Positions 10,241-20,138 of a stretch of 64,000 bases of DNA are shown piece after piece. A model generated the notes under the pieces. The model made no database searches and was not told where the DNA came from. It worked only from the letters and a program-made list of their open reading frames with translations. The stretch spans positions 203,321 through 267,320 of IMG/VR virus record IMGVR_UViG_3300046542_000227; one strand, written 5' to 3'. Numbering within the stretch: the stretch's first letter is position 1; each line of letters starts with the position of its first letter. The DNA is from a virus. The translations under genes and the position numbers were made by a program.

Positions 10241-12331
10241 ATGCTCGAACTGCTACTCACCGTAGGGCGGAAGACGACCGCAGCTGATGATTCGGATGTG
10301 CCATTTAATCCAGGCACTCCGTTCAAAGGCGTAGTACCAGCAGCGTCCTTTATCACAGGCGATACTCTCGCCGCCGCCATCAACTACCAAGGTGGTGTAT
10401 CCATTAACACGGACGCTGGATGGCTGCACTTTATCGAAGACAATGGTCTTGAGCTGTATATTGCCAAGAAGCCATTGCGTTATGGTATCTCCCCATCATA
10501 CAACGCCGAAGCATATGCTAGTGTTAACGGTGAAATCAATATCGCTGGTACCGTATACGTAATACGGGACATGTACGGTGCCGCCAGTATTTCAGGCGGT
10601 TACGGTCCAAGCAACGCTGGCGGTGAATGGAACCGTTACATGTACAACGTCTACGATCAAACCGATCGGGCGGGTATTCCAGAGGCCCTACTCTGGGGTA
10701 ATTACACCAACCCAATGTTGGGACTCCCTACCTCAACCGACGGGACCGACCTAGGAGATGGCGTCTTCAGCATCTGTGCGGACCACATCGCTGAAGGCAT
10801 AATAGTGCGCGGCAATGACTGGTACAACAGCAGTGGTGGTTACCACATTAAGGGTATCTGGTACGCACCACCCGGTAATATCCAGTCCTATTATGGCTGG
10901 CGTCCCATCCTGATCAAGAAGTCCACGATTCCACCAACACCGTTCAAAGGTGTGGTAGCACCCGAAGACTTAATTAGCGCACCTGACCTCGCCACCACCG
11001 TCGGTCTAACCACCGGTTCCCTCGGCTACGATCCTAATCCGGGCTGGCTGAAGTTTGTCAACAATGGCAAAACCGTCTACATCGCCAAGAAGCCGTTCCG
11101 GGTTAGCATCCTCTGGACGACGCTCAATGACTTGGGTGTGGTCTTCGGTACCAAGACTCTGGCGATCGGTGGTAAGCTCTATAAAGTTCGCTTGATGACG
11201 GGTAGTAACACTGACCCAGCGGATTTGGCTGCTGGTGAGTACGACACTCTCTTCTCACGAGTCACTGCGCTATATAGCGGTCCTGGTGAGCGTTGGGGTG
11301 AGCTTACGTACGATGACGTCGGATGGTACGGGGGTACGGGCACAGGTGAATTGTGTCTGTGTCAAGAACAATACGGCGGTGGACCGCTAACCCGAGGCTA
11401 TCCTGGTTTCGGTGGTATGTGGTATCAAGTGCCTACCGATACACATCCTGGCTATAGCTGGCGTCCAGTGTTGGAGCTGATAGGTGATGCTCCTACCATC
11501 ACTGACAGTTGGACCAAGCTGGGTGATCTGCCTGTGGCGATCAACGGGGCATCGGCTTGTGTCATCGGCAACAAGATGTACGTGTTCGGTGGCCAAGATG
11601 CTGGCTTTGCGGTTAAAGGCGGACTGTACGAAGTTGACCTGACTACGGGTGCTGTAGTTACCAAAGCGTCCGATGCGGCCAGACGTTACCACACGGCGGC
11701 AGCGATCAACGGCAAGATGTATATCTACGGGGGCTACACCACAGCTTACGTGGGTGATGTCAGGGTCTATGATCCGGCAACCAACACTTGGGCGAACGGT
11801 GCATTAAACGGCGTTGCTACAGACCGACATGCAGGTGTGGTGTACAACAACCTGTTCTACAACTTCGGTGGTAACGCAAGTCAGACACAGGCACGTTCTT
11901 ATAACACAGTGGGTGCTGCATGGTCTAACTACACCCCAACTGGTCTGGGTGGTTCTCCTTGCTACTTGGGTTCGGCTGACGTCCTTGGCACCAACATCTA
12001 CACCCACACTGGCTACCAATCGCAGAAGCAGTTCCGTAAGATCGACATGGTTGCTAACGTGTCGAGTGCACTGGCTAACCCACCGCATGGTTCGTATGGT
12101 CATGCACACGGTGCGATGCAGGGTGGTATCTACCTGCTGGGTGGTACGGTTGACGTGACTGGTAAAGACAAGGTAGTTACTCGTTACGATATCAACTCGA
12201 ACACCTGGAGTTATCTCGGTGCGATTCCTTACACCATCGGTGAACGGGCAGCTTGTGCGCAGGATGCAACCAACATTTACGTAGTGGGTGGCGTGGGTAG
12301 TCCAACAGCGATATGGAAATACACCCCGTAG
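10241..12331 (+). CDS. Tail-fibre-like protein: two repeat domains plus kelch propeller
   Basis: The 696 residues hold two copies of a ~190-residue domain (about 27-227 and 233-412). Each copy starts TPFKGVV, has a YIAKKP(L/F)R core and a GGEW- or GEY-like turn, and ends GWRP(I/V)L. From about 422 to the end there are kelch repeats (YVFGGQ, YIYGGYT, YNFGGNA, YLLGGT, YVVGGVG), predicted to form a beta-propeller. The same domain occurs three times in the next gene. Such modules suit a virion adhesin that binds the host surface. It starts at ATG 10241 after CGGAGCAAATC. The protein starts MLELLL, like the MLEYLL and MLETML starts of the next two genes, which supports this start. Confidence 0.8.
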   Translation: MLELLLTVGRKTTAADDSDVPFNPGTPFKGVVPAASFITGDTLAAAINYQGGVSINTDAGWLHFIEDNGLELYIAKKPLRYGISPSYNAEAYASVNGEINIAGTVYVIRDMYGAASISGGYGPSNAGGEWNRYMYNVYDQTDRAGIPEALLWGNYTNPMLGLPTSTDGTDLGDGVFSICADHIAEGIIVRGNDWYNSSGGYHIKGIWYAPPGNIQSYYGWRPILIKKSTIPPTPFKGVVAPEDLISAPDLATTVGLTTGSLGYDPNPGWLKFVNNGKTVYIAKKPFRVSILWTTLNDLGVVFGTKTLAIGGKLYKVRLMTGSNTDPADLAAGEYDTLFSRVTALYSGPGERWGELTYDDVGWYGGTGTGELCLCQEQYGGGPLTRGYPGFGGMWYQVPTDTHPGYSWRPVLELIGDAPTITDSWTKLGDLPVAINGASACVIGNKMYVFGGQDAGFAVKGGLYEVDLTTGAVVTKASDAARRYHTAAAINGKMYIYGGYTTAYVGDVRVYDPATNTWANGALNGVATDRHAGVVYNNLFYNFGGNASQTQARSYNTVGAAWSNYTPTGLGGSPCYLGSADVLGTNIYTHTGYQSQKQFRKIDMVANVSSALANPPHGSYGHAHGAMQGGIYLLGGTVDVTGKDKVVTRYDINSNTWSYLGAIPYTIGERAACAQDATNIYVVGGVGSPTAIWKYTP

Positions 12332-12339
12332 CGGCATAA

Positions 12340-12359
12340 CCCTCCCCTACGGGGGAGGG
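12340..12359 (+). terminator. Hairpin terminator
   Basis: CCCTCCCC (12340-12347) pairs with GGGGAGGG (12352-12359) around TACG, preceded by GCGGCATAA. Confidence 0.7.
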
Positions 12360-12399
12360 CTGTGTGTTTAAACCGAATTACAGCTTAAGGGTGAAAACC

Positions 12400-14322
12400 A
12401 TGTTGGAATATTTATTGGCATCAGGAACAGCCGCCGTGGAGGGACCATTTATCCCGCCAACGGTGGAGAGCGGTAAAGCGTTTAAAGGCTGGGTCAGCAG
12501 TGCGGCGCTGATCGACGGTGATGCATTGGCTACGGCCATTGGCCTGAGTGCAGGTACGTCGCATAACGCTGATGCTGGCTGGTTGCACTACATCGACGGG
12601 GCACGGGAGTTCTACATTGCCCGCAAGACCTTTCGTTATGGCCTAGGGCATGCCCCGATTGAAGCAGCCATCAGCAATGGCACCAAGGTAATCCAGATCG
12701 GCGCTGACTATTATAAGGTCAAGCAGATCTCGGCGATGGCTGCTGATCCATTCAGTAGTATCGTTGGCGTAGGTGGCGGTGGTGACTGGGATAAGTACAT
12801 CTATCCATTGGTCACCGGTCCAGCTCGGGCACAGATCACGGCTGAGGTTTGGTCGTACTATACCGAGAAGGATCTGGGTCTGTCACCGAACTGGGGCACA
12901 CAACCTAATGGATCGATCACACATGCTGCAGACAAGCACAGTGCGCTAACTACGGCACGTGCCTCCCGTGGTCGGAACTATGGCGGCGGGACGTCGATCG
13001 CTTCTGTGGTGGGTCGTACGGTTTATTACTCGGACAACCCTAACGAAGGTAACGCTGGTACGGGTCTGAACCAATACGGCTGGCGCCCGATGTTGGAGAA
13101 AACCACAGCGCCACCACCACCAGATGTATTCTACGGTGAGGTTGCGTCAGGAAGCTTCATCACACCGGGTGCGCTGACGACAGCGGTGGGTATGGGTGCC
13201 GTAGGTTCGGTTACCAACATTGATACGGTCTGGCTGAAGTATAAGATCGCTGGCAAGACTCTGTACACGCCGAAGCTACCACTGCGTCATGGTATTACGT
13301 GGGATGCTTTGAATGCCCTGGGCATCGTGTACGGTACGAAGGTAATCGTTATCGGTGGCAAGCGCTATTCGGTACGTCTGCCAAAAGGTGTCGATCCAGC
13401 AGTACCTTCCGCCAACGTCTACAACCCACTACACATGGGTGGTGACTTCAACAGCATGATCTATCCAGTCTATGGTGGTGTGGCCCTCAATAACGCACTG
13501 GTGCAAGCATATCCACGCTGGGCAGCTTACACAGATGCTGAGTTGGGTCTGAGTGTGTCTAAGTCGGGTATCCCTAATGGTGCCTTGACCATGTGCCAAG
13601 AGATGACCGCCAACGGTGGGTATCTGGTGCGGGGTTATAACGACAACGATAATGCTGGTACTGCACAGATCATCGCTGGCTGGTATGTCGGTGGTTCGGT
13701 TGTGCAGGCGTACGCAGGTTGGCGTCCGGTATTGGAAGAGTTGCCTGATCTGGTCGAGTCCTTCATGGGCGAGGTATCAGCAGCTAACTTCATCACTAAC
13801 AGTGCCTTAACCACAGCGGTCGGTGTAACCATGGGTACGCAGATCAACGCCAGTGAGGGTTGGTTGCATTACTACGTGGACAACACCGAGTACTATCTGG
13901 CGAAGAAACCGTTCCGTCAAAGCTTGACCCGAGAACACCTCCACTCGCTGGGGGCCGCAGTCGGGACCAAGACTGTAACGATCGGTGGCAACGTCTACAA
14001 AGTGCGACTGATGCTCTGTAAAGATCCAGCAGCAGCTAAGCCGGGTCAAGAATGGGCTAAGTTTATCTACCGTGTCTATGGGGGTTCTACAGCGAGCCAT
14101 CCAGATGTACAGGCACAGCCACGTTGGGCTGCTTACACCGATGCCGAGTTGGGCTTAGGTAATGAGAGTCCTGCAGATGGCCACATCAACATCGGTCAGG
14201 ATGCTTACAATGGGGGTTGGGCATCGCCTGGCTACCATAGTCCGACTGAACTGTGGTATCAACCTGCCAACACCACTAACGAAGGCTATGGATGGCGTCC
14301 GTTGCTGGAACTGGTACCGTAG
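12400..14322 (+). CDS. Tail-fibre-like protein with three repeat domains
   Basis: The 640 residues are three tandem copies of the ~190-residue domain seen in the previous gene (about 24-235, 244-448 and 458-638). Each runs from F(K/Y/M)G(W/E)V to GWRP(M/V/L)LE. Internal marks shared by the copies are WL(H/K)Y, an IGG.YKVR-like strand and AYTDAELGL. There is no kelch part. It is probably a structural shaft or receptor-binding component of the same tail organelle as its neighbours. The GTG at 12364 is in frame, but ATG 12400 has the ribosome site TAAGGG and gives the shared MLEYLL start. Confidence 0.8.
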   Translation: MLEYLLASGTAAVEGPFIPPTVESGKAFKGWVSSAALIDGDALATAIGLSAGTSHNADAGWLHYIDGAREFYIARKTFRYGLGHAPIEAAISNGTKVIQIGADYYKVKQISAMAADPFSSIVGVGGGGDWDKYIYPLVTGPARAQITAEVWSYYTEKDLGLSPNWGTQPNGSITHAADKHSALTTARASRGRNYGGGTSIASVVGRTVYYSDNPNEGNAGTGLNQYGWRPMLEKTTAPPPPDVFYGEVASGSFITPGALTTAVGMGAVGSVTNIDTVWLKYKIAGKTLYTPKLPLRHGITWDALNALGIVYGTKVIVIGGKRYSVRLPKGVDPAVPSANVYNPLHMGGDFNSMIYPVYGGVALNNALVQAYPRWAAYTDAELGLSVSKSGIPNGALTMCQEMTANGGYLVRGYNDNDNAGTAQIIAGWYVGGSVVQAYAGWRPVLEELPDLVESFMGEVSAANFITNSALTTAVGVTMGTQINASEGWLHYYVDNTEYYLAKKPFRQSLTREHLHSLGAAVGTKTVTIGGNVYKVRLMLCKDPAAAKPGQEWAKFIYRVYGGSTASHPDVQAQPRWAAYTDAELGLGNESPADGHINIGQDAYNGGWASPGYHSPTELWYQPANTTNEGYGWRPLLELVP

Positions 14323-14332
14323 CAAACATCTA

Positions 14333-14350
14333 GCCCTCCTTCGGGAGGGC
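14333..14350 (+). terminator. TTCG-loop terminator
   Basis: GCCCTCC (14333-14339), TTCG loop, GGAGGGC (14344-14350), then TTTATGTCG. Confidence 0.75.
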
Positions 14351-14408
14351 TTTATGTCGTCGATGGTATGTTGATTGTTTTTGATAGTGGTAATAAAGGG
14401 AATTGGTT

Positions 14409-15362
14409 ATGTTGGAAACAATGTTAATGACGAAGCCACCTGCCGGATGGGTACCTGATCCGGACGGTAGTAGTTGGGTAGGGCTAGCTCCCGACTGGAC
14501 GCTTGTGGGTACTGGACCCATCAACACACCAACGTACAATAACTGCTTTGGGGCATATGGTGGTAAGCTGTACACTTTTAGTGGTGACCTAAATGCCGAA
14601 CTCTGGCAGGGCGACACAGCGAACCTAACTACATGGACAAAGAAGACCAATGGGGCATTAGCCAAGGATGATGCCGCAGGTTGTTTCTGTAAGGGCAAGT
14701 TCTATGTGCATGGTGGTTACGACACTGGTGGTAGTAACACCACCAACAACGTCATGCGAGCCTACGACCCATCTAAGAACACGTGGGCGGGCGTAGCAGC
14801 AGGTCCGGTTAAACGGGCAAGTCATGCTATGGAAAACCTGAACGACCAGATCTATCTATTCGGTGGGTATAGTGCAACATCGGGCGATCTTCTACTTGAC
14901 CTATGGCGATACAACCCAACCTCTAACGCGTGGGTTCGTTTAGCCGATGCGCCGAGTACACGTCGTGCCTTTGGTTTAGCTGCAGCCGACGGTAAGGTAT
15001 ACGTGTACGGAGGTTATACACTACCGGGACTTACAACAACAGACGGCTTCATGGTTTATGATGTCGCGACCAATACATGGTCTACATTACCCAATACACC
15101 GGGCCCGCGGTTTCAATGCACATTAACCGCACTGAATGGCAAGATCTATCTATTCGGGGGTCAACTTAGCAGCACCTACTACAACGAGTTATGGGTATTT
15201 GATCCAGTGGTGGGTGAATGGACGTTACTAACACCAGCGGCGCCATTACCAGCCGCCCGACGGTGGCATCATGCAGCAGTCCAGCAAAACAAGCTGGTGA
15301 TCTACGGTGGTTACACAGGTGCAGTTAACCGTGAGGTTTGGGTGTACACGCCGCCGGCATAA
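14409..15362 (+). CDS. Kelch-repeat protein, probable tail adhesin
   Basis: The 317 residues are almost entirely kelch repeats (YTFSGD, YVHGGYD, YLFGGYS, YVYGGYT, YLFGGQ, VIYGGYT) separated by W-rich strands such as NTW.. and NAWVRLAD, enough for one six-bladed beta-propeller. It starts MLETMLMTK, like the two fibre genes before it, but lacks their repeat domain. It is probably a third, free-standing version of the receptor-binding head. The ATG at 14409 follows AAGGGAATTGGTT; the in-frame TTG at 14403 lies inside that ribosome region. Confidence 0.8.
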   Translation: MLETMLMTKPPAGWVPDPDGSSWVGLAPDWTLVGTGPINTPTYNNCFGAYGGKLYTFSGDLNAELWQGDTANLTTWTKKTNGALAKDDAAGCFCKGKFYVHGGYDTGGSNTTNNVMRAYDPSKNTWAGVAAGPVKRASHAMENLNDQIYLFGGYSATSGDLLLDLWRYNPTSNAWVRLADAPSTRRAFGLAAADGKVYVYGGYTLPGLTTTDGFMVYDVATNTWSTLPNTPGPRFQCTLTALNGKIYLFGGQLSSTYYNELWVFDPVVGEWTLLTPAAPLPAARRWHHAAVQQNKLVIYGGYTGAVNREVWVYTPPA

Positions 15363-16043: not shown

Positions 16044-16475
16044 TCACCCCCGAAATGAAATATCACCGATGTAAGCCATGTTGTTTTGAGCACCATAGCG
16101 AATTGCCGCCGCCCTGACGAAGTTCCATTCAGGGATCGTCAAGGTTAGATTACCCGACTTGTACGCAAACATCGCGTAGTAACACATGCGGTCGATCTTC
16201 GAATACTTGATGTCGTAGATGTCATCATCCACGTCATCACTCTGCTGTGGGATCATGCTGTACGGACCCAGCGCATCACTAACCGAGTTTTGATCACCCA
16301 GTGTTTGTGCCACAGCCAGCATTTCAACGATCTCATTGCGCAGTTCAAAGATGGCCGCCCGACCTTTCCACGGACTGGCCACCCCTTGCTGCTGACACTT
16401 CATCGCTTCTTTAGCGACCTCACTGGCCTCTTCAGCCAACTTGCCTAAGAGGTACTGCACCCACGTCATGCTCAT
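16044..16475 (-). CDS. MazG-like nucleotide pyrophosphohydrolase-type protein
   Basis: The N-terminal half has the all-alpha MazG/HisE look: LAEEASEVAKEAMK at about 12-25 (an EExxE type motif) followed by ELRNEIVEMLAVAQTL at about 45-60, where the usual ExxD is replaced by E(I/V)xE. The family hydrolyses non-canonical or alarmone nucleoside triphosphates using magnesium held by these acidic residues. The C-terminal ~70 residues are unlike the family core. The ATG at 16475 has CGGAG 7 bases upstream and overlaps the end of the upstream -1 frame by 44 bases. Activity is uncertain because of the ExxE substitution. Confidence 0.6.
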   Translation of the reverse strand: MSMTWVQYLLGKLAEEASEVAKEAMKCQQQGVASPWKGRAAIFELRNEIVEMLAVAQTLGDQNSVSDALGPYSMIPQQSDDVDDDIYDIKYSKIDRMCYYAMFAYKSGNLTLTIPEWNFVRAAAIRYGAQNNMAYIGDISFRG

Positions 16476-16851
16476 TTAACAGCTCCGCTAAGGCCCGGGC
16501 TTGTGATACCGGGGTAGTTGCAAAACGATCTGAGATCAATCCACCTGCCTCTGTAGCCTTAACCCGTAGCTCTGCGAACAGTTGAGGGTTTTCGTCTACC
16601 CAGCGACGCCACAGCTCCTTGTAGGCAGCATATAGGTCGATTGTAGGGTCAAGCGGTGGTTTACCTTTACCAATACGCCAGTCATCAACACCCAGATCAC
16701 CATAACCCTTAACACCGAGCTGGTAATGTTCCTCAATAGTAAACCCGTCACTAAGACGGGCTACTAATGCCGAGAAGCGACGGTCTCCTTTGGTGGAGAC
16801 TTCTATGCCGCCAAATCTTTCGAAGCGGAACTGGATGGACTGGCTGGCAGC
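16432..16851 (-). CDS. Start-less -1 frame extension of the DNA polymerase gene (139 residues)
   Basis: Between the polymerase stop (16803) and the MazG-like start (16475) there is a clearly protein-like frame with no ATG, GTG or TTG near its beginning. It is open from the polymerase end through to TGA at 16434-16432. It reads for example FGGIEVSTKGDRRFSALVA, VDDWRIGKGKPPLDP and ISDRFATTPVSQARALAELL, a set of motifs I associate with a small stand-alone protein family of large phages, function unknown. It is exactly -1 to the polymerase and can be entered at A AAA AAG (16857-16851). The predicted fusion is 624 + 139 = 763 residues. The alternative is an assembly error in the six-A run. Confidence 0.7.
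   Translation of the reverse strand, partial: AASQSIQFRFERFGGIEVSTKGDRRFSALVARLSDGFTIEEHYQLGVKGYGDLGVDDWRIGKGKPPLDPTIDLYAAYKELWRRWVDENPQLFAELRVKATEAGGLISDRFATTPVSQARALAELLNEHDVGAVPLRQVG
16783..16800 (-). other. Hairpin just after the polymerase 0-frame stop
   Basis: GTCTCC/GGAGAC with a six-base loop, flanked by the same GCGGCATAGA context that precedes true terminators in this genome, 3 bases after the polymerase TAG. It lies inside the -1 reading frame. It may be a terminator remnant or a structure affecting recoding; it is about 50 bases from the slippery site, too far for a classical stimulatory hairpin. Confidence 0.4.
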
Positions 16852-18722
16852 TTTTTTCCTTTGTGTTCCAGATAGGCTTCCAAGATGCGATCCATCGACG
16901 GAGCATTCAGAACCTTCTGTGCTATCTCCACAGCATTAACCCGACCACCCGTTAGGTTCACCCCGAACTCACGCCGTATCGCTTCAGTGAGTCCTTGAAT
17001 CTGACAGAACTCCATCACCGTAGTTTCACGAGCGATGTTGAGAATCTGCGAGACGTTAGGGTAAGTCGATACAATGTCGAGGTCGGCTACGTGCGTGAAG
17101 ATTAGCGTCAGGTATTCCCGCATCTCTTCGACACAGGCCATCCCCTCAGCCGCAGCCATATACGACGGTAGCGTGACGATCCAGTCGTCATGTCCAATCA
17201 CGAACTTATCCAGTTCATGAGACATCTGGTCAGACGCTGTACCAATCACCGACTTCTGCGGACGGTTCAGATACCAGAAATGCATATCGTCGCAAAGACG
17301 TTTCGGGTTGGAGTTAAAGTTCTTAAAGTCCGAGTTCTTCGAATACATCGTAATCGACGAAGCCAAGTCTTTAGTCTTCTCATCCAACTGCTCCAAGCGC
17401 ACGCTGTCGACGATGTTATAAACACCGTAAACGATCTTGTGCTTGGCTTGCATCACTTCGTGCCAACGCAGACCGGTGAGGTGATCGGTTGGTTTGTATT
17501 TCAGCTTACCGAAGTCGTTACGGACTTCGAGGACGTCGCCGACCTTCACGTTTTCAGGAGTGATGTCCTTACGAGCGATGTCTTGCTCGTTCAAGCTGTA
17601 ATAAACGAAGCCACCTTTGCCTTTAGTCAGGTCATCGGCTTTATCGAGGAATGCTTGAATGTCACCCACCGCACTGATCTTGGACTCATAGTCACCATTG
17701 AGTTCCTTCTTCAGAATGCGGTCCAGGGCATAAGAGGGATCTTTACCGTTTGCCAGTCGAGTAATGCGATATACCGTCATGGCATCGATGCATTGGAAGG
17801 TAGCCGGATGGGTTACCCAGTTCCAACGGTCTTCCACGTTGATCGACATTACTTTACCAGAAGCGGTGGTCTTCTGTGTGTTGCCTTTGCGATAGTTGAA
17901 GTACTTGTATTTGTCCGGAACCGTAGGGTCACTGAACACCATGCGCAGATCGATACCTTCCTTCTCCAGAGCACGGATGATTTTGCTCATGTCGAAGTCC
18001 ATGTTCCAGAAGGCAAACCAATCAGGCTTCCATTCATGGAGCTTCTCGATGCAGAGCATAACCACTTGAGCTGGAGTGTCAGCGATCAACACTTCAATTT
18101 CAAGGCCACGTTCTTCGAGTAGTTCAGGGATCAGTTCTTTCGCAGTACGGTGCGTATCACCAATTGGATCATCGATGTCTGCGACCCAACGCTTGAGGTA
18201 AACCAGACGTACGTTCTTCTTGTGACTAACCGACATGCAGATGATGTCATCTGTACCATCAACTACGTCGGTCTCAATGTCACCACCACCAACTGTGTTA
18301 AAGCTGATGGTTTCTGGATACTTGGTACGGTACTCTGCTTTAGCACAGCACGCCGAGCTGACATCAGCTCCATAGACGTACGGGTTACGTTGCAGAACAC
18401 GTTGTTGCATATGGGGGCCACCGGTACCCATACCCAAGGTACGGGCGATGGACTTGACCAGATCGAGCTGCGTCGAGGAATACTCTTGCAGGTTGCTGGC
18501 AAATTCGTAGTCTTTCTTCTCTTCGTGGTTACGACGGCCTTTGTGGGTGATCCAGTAAGGACGCTTATAGTTCTCTTCAAAACGAAGACGGGGCACACGC
18601 CGCCCATCTTCCAAATGTACGACTTCTTTAATCACCAGCATGTCGCTGATGCCACGTTCTTGGTCTACAACGTAGGTAATGTGTTTCGCTTCAAAGCCGG
18701 TTGGTTTAACAATAGAGCTCAC
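16803..18722 (-). CDS. Family B DNA polymerase, exonuclease domain through motif A
   Basis: The 639-residue 0-frame product carries the 3'-5' exonuclease triad: Exo I DIE (D148, E150), Exo II FWNMDFD (N240, D244) and Exo III YNIVD (Y435, D439). Polymerase motif A is DIVSTYP (D549 to P555), followed by LNIARETT. Motif B (KxxxNxxYG) and motif C (DTDS) are not seen before the stop, so the palm is incomplete and a partner chain may exist elsewhere in the genome. The last 15 residues are Ser/Ala-rich and follow a perfect A AAA AAG slippery site at codons 622-624. It starts at ATG 18722 and is the first gene of a leftward replication-type unit, divergent from the metallopeptidase operon. Confidence 0.85.
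   Translation of the reverse strand: MSSIVKPTGFEAKHITYVVDQERGISDMLVIKEVVHLEDGRRVPRLRFEENYKRPYWITHKGRRNHEEKKDYEFASNLQEYSSTQLDLVKSIARTLGMGTGGPHMQQRVLQRNPYVYGADVSSACCAKAEYRTKYPETISFNTVGGGDIETDVVDGTDDIICMSVSHKKNVRLVYLKRWVADIDDPIGDTHRTAKELIPELLEERGLEIEVLIADTPAQVVMLCIEKLHEWKPDWFAFWNMDFDMSKIIRALEKEGIDLRMVFSDPTVPDKYKYFNYRKGNTQKTTASGKVMSINVEDRWNWVTHPATFQCIDAMTVYRITRLANGKDPSYALDRILKKELNGDYESKISAVGDIQAFLDKADDLTKGKGGFVYYSLNEQDIARKDITPENVKVGDVLEVRNDFGKLKYKPTDHLTGLRWHEVMQAKHKIVYGVYNIVDSVRLEQLDEKTKDLASSITMYSKNSDFKNFNSNPKRLCDDMHFWYLNRPQKSVIGTASDQMSHELDKFVIGHDDWIVTLPSYMAAAEGMACVEEMREYLTLIFTHVADLDIVSTYPNVSQILNIARETTVMEFCQIQGLTEAIRREFGVNLTGGRVNAVEIAQKVLNAPSMDRILEAYLEHKGKKLPASPSSSASKDLAA
16851..16857 (-). promoter_or_regulatory. 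A AAA AAG slippery heptamer (-1 frameshift candidate)
   Basis: On the - strand the codons read GGA AAA AAG CTG, so the heptamer sits in the correct X XXY YYZ phase. This is the same site as in E. coli dnaX. The -1 frame beyond it is open for 139 codons and has no start of its own. Confidence 0.65.
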
Positions 18723-18812: not shown

Positions 18813-20138
18813 ATGCTAAAAGAAACTGTATCGCTTGAGCTTTTGAACGTAAAAGCTAAGCGTGCGTTGGGTATCCGAATCGAAGCTGTTATTGAGCAAT
18901 GGATCGCCCGTCGTGAATTCGCCTATTTCTACACCAGTGAACAGCTTGTTGAACTGGCCACCATCGTTAAAGAAGAGATGGGTGTAAACGTTGAGTTCGT
19001 AATGAACCCACGTCCAGTCATCAATGCTGCAGCCAACGTTATCCAGTTGCCAGGGCACAGCGGTAGCACCTATAACGGTCCGGGCACCAAGCCATTGACT
19101 GTAACGGGGCGCGACGTACCACAGCAATTGCGCAAGATCAAGATCGACCTCGATAAAGGGAAGATCACTGGCGAAGTTATTGATGGCTTGAAGAATCGCA
19201 TCACACTGTTCGCCGGTTTGGTTAGCGACGATGTAATGCTGACGGCTGAAGAGATCGCTGCGGTTGTCGTGCACGAGCTGGGTCATGTTTGGAACCAGTA
19301 CTTCGCATTGGGTGATTATGTCTGGCTGAACTATTACCTACAGGACGGCCTGGAAGTTCTGTCTGGGAAGAAGCCCAACATCTATAAGCTGGAGATCTTG
19401 ACCGAAGCAGGCTTGGATAAGTACTGTGACGATAAAGATGCACTGGCTGCGATGAAGGCTAACCCCTCTGCGAAGAACGTACGCCGTGCGTTGCTAATTG
19501 CTGCGCAGAAAGCACCGCGACAACACCTGTCGTCTAAAGAGACCGATATCTCCTTGCTGCGTGAAGAGCAGTTGGCCGATATGTTCGCCTCCCGGATGGG
19601 TTACGCCCGAGCCTCTATCTCGCTGCATGTTAAATGTAGCAAGAAGTATGGCAGTCGTTTCCTCATCAGCTCTAGCGCCATGACCTTCATGGAAACCACC
19701 AAGGTTCTCCTAAACGTCGGGGCTATTGTTACGGCATTCGCTGCGATCGCATTACCGCCACTGTTGGTTGCGGCATTGGCACTGCGCATCACAGCCGTCT
19801 GCATGACTGACTACAATGTCAAGGAACCGGCGACTTACGATAACGACATCGAACGCCCGATGAAGTTCCGTCGTGACCTCGTGGCTCAGCTGAAGATCTT
19901 GGGTGAAGACAAAGCACTCGAAGAAAAGATCCTCGAAGACATTCGAGTGGTAGATGATCTGTTAGCTATCTACCGTAAGAACACCACGCTCTGGGAAGCT
20001 TTCGAACTGTTAGTTAACCCAAGCGTCCGCCGTAATCGCCACCAACGTGCTGGTGAAGAAGAACTGGAACAATTGCTCAACAACGACCTATTCGTTGCTG
20101 CTGCTAAATTCAATGCCCTGTCGAGGAAGTTGTCATGA
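18813..20138 (+). CDS. HExxH metallopeptidase with membrane segment (M48-like)
   Basis: A 441-residue probable zinc metallopeptidase. VVVHELGH places the zinc ligands at H154 and H158 with catalytic E155. A downstream EQLAD (E252 to D256) fits the third-ligand ExxAD pattern of M48-type gluzincins. Residues ~300-330 are a long hydrophobic stretch (GAIVTAFAAIALPPLLVAAL), long enough for one or two membrane helices. The C-terminal ~100 residues are charged and helical. It leads a four-gene + strand operon and overlaps the next gene by 4 bases (ATGA). A role in envelope entry, virion processing or host takeover is possible; the active-site residues are seen, the role is inferred. Confidence 0.75.
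   Translation: MLKETVSLELLNVKAKRALGIRIEAVIEQWIARREFAYFYTSEQLVELATIVKEEMGVNVEFVMNPRPVINAAANVIQLPGHSGSTYNGPGTKPLTVTGRDVPQQLRKIKIDLDKGKITGEVIDGLKNRITLFAGLVSDDVMLTAEEIAAVVVHELGHVWNQYFALGDYVWLNYYLQDGLEVLSGKKPNIYKLEILTEAGLDKYCDDKDALAAMKANPSAKNVRRALLIAAQKAPRQHLSSKETDISLLREEQLADMFASRMGYARASISLHVKCSKKYGSRFLISSSAMTFMETTKVLLNVGAIVTAFAAIALPPLLVAALALRITAVCMTDYNVKEPATYDNDIERPMKFRRDLVAQLKILGEDKALEEKILEDIRVVDDLLAIYRKNTTLWEAFELLVNPSVRRNRHQRAGEEELEQLLNNDLFVAAAKFNALSRKLS

Follow-up and report, generated by a model that had tools for sequence, protein, structure and literature searches.

How can a conserved protein domain be made when its reading frame has no usable start codon and begins inside the end of a DNA polymerase gene? 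The question is raised by one locus in the window (the whole stretch of 64,000 nucleotides of viral DNA analysed here), which comes from a phiKZ-like jumbo phage whose closest named relative is Noxifer. The features concerned are the following.

16803..18722, minus strand: 0-frame polymerase gene with a GTG start, 639 aa (phrog_3011 DNA polymerase, E 1.7e-226)
16851..16857, minus strand: slippery heptamer A_AAA_AAG in the polymerase phase (V_VVA_AAG kept in 18 of 18 loci of the -1 type)
16803..16850, minus strand: 0-frame tail without a slip, 15 codons plus TAG (model residues 625-639 have pLDDT <50, disordered)
16435..16851, minus strand: -1 frame after a slip, 139 codons, conserved domain phrog_9995, no usable start (profile match; AF2 pLDDT 94.7)
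16432..16434, minus strand: stop codon TGA of the fusion reading (from the sequence)
16807..16851, minus strand: predicted RNA hairpin, a possible stimulator (107-nt segment, MFE -36.4, z -3.07)
16044..16475, minus strand: downstream gene, nucleoside triphosphate pyrophosphohydrolase-like, phrog_4856, with its own ATG; overlaps the 3′ end of the -1 frame

Reading the sequence directly places the polymerase codons GGA AAA AAG at 16859-16851 on the minus strand, exactly where an earlier sequence-only reading of this DNA had claimed a canonical -1 heptamer in the right phase; in the 646-codon polymerase ORF, this junction site is the sole in-phase XXXYYYZ heptamer of any kind. Past the slip site, the 0-frame holds 15 residues (LPASPSSSASKDLAA) and then TAG at 16805-16803, and the -1 frame is open from GCT (16851) through 139 codons, so that the fusion would have 763 residues (624 + 139); the tail length and the fusion length, both given earlier, were recomputed and are exact. 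The claim that this open frame lacks ATG, GTG, or TTG near its beginning also held on re-reading: the earliest such codon, with numbering from where the site starts, is a TTG at codon 107 (of 141), which sits deep within the conserved domain, and the next is a GTG at codon 132.

The -1 frame had been said to look like a conserved domain, and it is one: its product matches phrog_9995 over residues 10-130 (E 2.8e-43), which gives a domain of about 125 residues, tblastn with the product finds matches in 99 phage records, and an alignment of 57 relatives has 13 invariant columns. Per codon of the domain frame, differences at positions 1/2/3 amount to 0.27/0.26/0.57 in one group of relatives and 0.31/0.27/0.62 in another; the third position thus differs about twice as much as either of the first two, which shows selection to keep the frame as a protein. 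The AlphaFold2 model of the domain is confident (pLDDT as listed), and a structure search with it against the PDB gave no match (best E 1.5); searches of Pfam, NCBIfam, and PADLOC gave no convincing family match either. Beyond the domain's own family, BFVD gave weak matches, among them DUF7831, DUF4326, and NADAR proteins. The NADAR/DUF4326 identity prompted by the motif FSA...DG.TIEEHYQ...K was not supported (hhalign probability of 0.9% against 10 NADAR proteins; structure matches in BFVD at E 0.6-7 only, and none in the PDB).

The 0-frame gene had been called a family B DNA polymerase; the family stands, the whole enzyme does not, as the gene looks like the N-terminal half (3′-5′ exonuclease plus motif A) of a split family B polymerase. 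The AF2 model of the 0-frame protein matches RB69 gp43 (E 7e-13), i.e., a family B fold; its DEDDy exonuclease motifs have invariant residues D148/E150, N240-F243-D244, and Y435-D439, and a motif A-like DxxSxYP is invariant at residues 549-555. Polymerase motifs B and C are absent from this protein, and motifs A, B, and C are thus not in one protein: a separate 735-codon ORF of the same genome (G000:C1:180314-181678) has a motif B-like NNNSYSG and the motif C DTDS, and resembles the PF20286/phiKZ gp50 protein of relatives. PF00136 has no match in the 267-kb genome, and phrog_262 detects both polymerase halves, with positions 445-705 covered by the 735-codon ORF and 121-430 by the polymerase gene of the window. 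The polymerase looks broken between motif A and motif B, and because it appears split in this way, with motif A here and motifs B/C in the separate ORF, the active site should need both proteins. In phiKZ terms, the 0-frame protein is the homologue of gp82 (phrog_3011), and the genome also encodes an ORF similar to gp50 (PF20286, a divergent family B polymerase). An earlier survey reported that the polymerase of group-1 jumbo phages has no exonuclease fused to it and that the exonuclease gene lies at another place (PMC7824862), and an antisense essentiality screen picked up both phiKZ 082 and phiKZ 050 (PMC12571901). Group I introns (Rfam RF00028) are found at or near motif A of the polymerase gene in PhiPA3, HPP-Temi, and L124 (at L008:1908-2213, L012:1878-2213, and L124:4419-4872); the polymerase ORF of L119 is also interrupted at motif A, without an Rfam match.

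The sequence-only reading had suggested comparing relatives for the site and the -1 frame, and there the in-phase -1 heptamer is kept and a start is mostly absent. We drew relatives from named phages and IMG/VR, and read their junctions by script. The domain is in the -1 frame in 18 loci, including the window and phiKZ, and in all 18 the part of the polymerase ORF that was recovered has a single in-phase V_VVA_AAG, which is without exception the one at the junction (because of an intron, this count covers just the last 85 polymerase codons in PhiPA3 and the last 119 in HPP-Temi). The heptamer is A_AAA_AAG in the window, L001, Noxifer, L021, L022, and L101; C_CCA_AAG in phiKZ, 201phi2-1, Viktualia, PS119XW, HPP-Temi, PhiPA3, Phabio, L027, L032, L057, and L134; and G_GGA_AAG in L028. 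PA7, which is near phiKZ, has the same C_CCA_AAG. In contrast to these loci, polymerase relatives that lack the domain and have readable tails (e.g., Xanthomonas LucasX, SPN3US, and L121) have no in-phase heptamer there.

Shuffling synonymous codons yields a tail site by chance at 0.01-0.30 per lineage; the per-lineage chances multiply to about 1e-22, a figure that takes no account of relatedness and should not be read as a P value. Six amino acids (N, S, L, P, A, and V) are encoded by the codon preceding CCA AAG, but its third base is always C, so it is the nucleotide heptamer itself that is conserved. The site is therefore conserved beyond the encoded amino acids, as three heptamers of one form (V_VVA_AAG). 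When measured with stimulators in E. coli, -1 slippage was most efficient on C_CC.A_AA.G, G_GG.A_AA.G, and A_AA.A_AA.G (PMC4066793), and the three junction heptamers are exactly this top-three set. In the CCCAAAG/GGGAAAG group, the domain frame also has a higher share of identical codons over its first 16 (0.65 and 0.58) than overall (0.45). The polymerase stop follows the opening of the -1 frame by just 10 nt in phiKZ, PS119XW, HPP-Temi, Viktualia, L027, L028, and L032, and by 13 nt in L057; in all eight loci the heptamer falls within this short gap.

We therefore consider it very likely that a programmed -1 slip near the 3′-end of the polymerase half-gene yields two forms of the subunit, one of them with the extra domain. 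Ribosomes would reach A_AAA_AAG close to the end of the half-gene; some would stay in the 0-frame and terminate 15 codons on, and a fraction would re-pair one base back (AAA AAG to AAA AAA) and read on in the -1 frame, giving the polymerase-domain fusion of 763 residues. The phage would then make two forms of the exonuclease/motif-A subunit, one carrying the C-terminal domain, with the motif-B/C half supplied by the separate gene. That slippage occurs in the cell, and its rate, are points that we infer from the sequence.

An error in the data was the main alternative put forward earlier (one missing A in the assembly), and a six-A run is indeed a classical error site. Independently sequenced relatives, among them Noxifer and several IMG/VR contigs, share the same in-phase AAAAAAG (Noxifer, L001, L021, L022, and L101), and relatives of phiKZ with CCCAAAG or GGGAAAG, which have no long A-run, keep the frame change across independent data; assembly error is thereby excluded, and the broader explanation, in which an ordinary in-frame fusion gene was wrongly sequenced or assembled, or was recently inactivated by a frameshift, is exceedingly improbable. 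RNA polymerase slippage can arise at A-runs, and phages of the phiKZ-like group encode their own RNA polymerases, so that transcripts with bases added or removed on the A6 run could join the two frames; but the homologues with CCCAAAG or GGGAAAG have the same arrangement with three A only, and we regard transcriptional slippage as very improbable as well.

A less remote, still unlikely, explanation is that the domain is a small protein in its own right, produced either through termination-reinitiation or from a non-canonical start codon, such as ATC or ATA, that overlaps the polymerase end. Five of the 18 loci have an ATG (PhiPA3 and L134, both as TAATG) or a GTG (201phi2-1, Viktualia, and PS119XW) near the junction, so re-initiation could contribute in these relatives, and near the expected start place there is an ATC in the window and an ATA in phiKZ. 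The codon at this place is not conserved, however: between the slip site and the invariant core, 13 of the 18 loci have no NTG start, and L001, Noxifer, HPP-Temi, and Phabio have neither an NTG nor an ATN start. Standalone genes for the domain with an ATG do exist, in Achromobacter, Delftia, and Sphingomonas phages, as the sequence-only reading had envisaged for relatives, but these phages are unrelated and the gene never adjoins this polymerase. A separate protein also leaves the invariant in-phase heptamer unexplained.

The hairpin predicted in the window lies directly 3′ of the heptamer; this element varies across the clade (z from +0.9 to -3.9 in relatives) and is not conserved, and no single conserved stimulatory RNA fold was found across the junctions. 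In the CCCAAAG clade, where the DNA has a mean column identity of 83%, the RNAalifold result is a weak hairpin containing one compensatory pair. Only some of the relatives have a Shine-Dalgarno-like motif 10-14 nt upstream of the site.

Two side branches join the domain to the polymerase differently. In nine loci (Psa21, D6, RVTF4, L025, L034, L037, L043, L045, and L053) the domain is in the +1/-2 frame. This clade has no heptamer of the V_VVA_AAG type; each member has one GAAAAGAAG, in phase 0, with varying upstream codons. No start is conserved here, as the codon at the place where one might lie is GTG, TTG, CTG, ACG, or CGG; an additional TTG is found at -14 in L010, L043, and L053. This clade could use either a -2 slip (AAG to AAA) or a +1 slip. 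GAAAAGAAG is invariant at the +1/-2 junction in L010, L011, L013, L025, L034, L037, L043, L045, and L053, and is a candidate for an unusual frameshift signal. In L023/L119 and L029/L115, the domain follows the polymerase TAG in frame, and the next codon is CTA or CTG. TAG terminates 20 of 102 and 17 of 122 ORFs in these two lineages, and no tRNA genes were found in their 252 kb; with TAG a common stop and no tRNA gene found, global recoding of TAG is unlikely, and stop readthrough would be the simplest reading. In the same genome as L029, another ORF (L189:15126-15599) ends with TAG CTA followed by 144 open codons, a second possible case of readthrough.

The domain is also found with other partners. 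One-ORF fusions link it with Pif1/AAA_30 helicases (L207 and L086), with cpYpsA SLOG (L208, L210, and L211), with DUF4326 plus YAcAr SLOG (L033), and with YAcAr (L038). In L095, the domain and then the PF20286 divergent family B polymerase (E 5.5e-170) are in one ORF (L095:2456-5056, on a 51-kb viral contig), with the domain joined directly to the polymerase N-terminus. The domain thus precedes the motif-B/C half in L095 and follows the motif-A half in the phiKZ group, and in sequence order it is at the polymerase split in both, a hint in Rosetta-stone style from this one contig. We infer a role for the domain at the join of the polymerase halves, and its partners suggest that it is possibly tied to nucleotide- or NAD-based conflict. 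A wider proposal, which we offer tentatively and with rather less than even confidence, is that the domain may be a module of the break point of the split replicative polymerase, joined to the end of the motif-A half by recoding (phiKZ-like phages) and to the start of the motif-B/C half by plain fusion (another phage). Its amount would be set by interchangeable signals (any of three heptamers for a -1 slip, GAAAAGAAG for a +1/-2 slip, or a UAG that is read through), and there would be two forms of the holoenzyme, one with a module that, if the SLOG, DUF4326, and helicase partners found in other contexts are a guide, may connect replication with conflict based on nucleotides or NAD.

A known parallel is dnaX of E. 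coli (DNA polymerase III tau/gamma), where A_AAA_AAG in a replication gene likewise yields two C-terminal variants (PMC5009743). The two genes are unrelated, no conserved stimulator was found at junctions of the window type, and the dnaX slip gives a shorter form, whereas the slip here would give a longer form with a new domain. The tail assembly chaperones G/GT of tailed phages are likewise a conserved phage frameshift that extends a protein at its C-terminus, in a direction (-1 or -2) that differs among phages; they are morphogenesis chaperones, whereas the present case involves a replication enzyme, three alternative heptamers, and side branches that use another frame or a stop codon. Related retroviruses reach the gag-pol fusion by either -1 frameshifting or UAG readthrough, and the two TAG lineages may likewise use UAG readthrough, but here in a DNA phage and with a small domain as the extension.

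Because the domain frame has no start codon, annotators begin at internal codons or leave the region blank: phiKZ has PHIKZ082.1 only (38 codons, in both GenBank and RefSeq), and in Viktualia the region is annotated as three fragments. None of the examined records annotates a frameshift; the region is a 38-codon fragment, a truncated protein, or nothing. In the open-licence PMC literature on frameshifting in phiKZ, jumbo phages, and phage DNA polymerase we found no description of the event, and the C-terminal extension of phiKZ gp82 is undescribed in this literature and in the examined records. Although phiKZ is a model jumbo phage, the C-terminal form of its gene 082 product appears to have been missed. 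If the proposed slip is real, the replicative polymerase of these Pseudomonas jumbo phages comes in two forms under the control of translational recoding, and a phage replication machine that has been studied in depth would have a conserved feature that annotation had overlooked; the swap between -1 heptamers, another frame, and a stop codon in one gene family would then amount to a natural experiment in the evolution of recoding signals.

Two further observations concern the plus strand of the window. A 441-aa protein with an HELGH metalloprotease motif is encoded beside the polymerase gene, at 18813-20138, and three large adjacent genes at 10241-15362 encode tail-fibre-like proteins with Kelch-like repeats and repeated GEV..ITP..LTTAVG modules.
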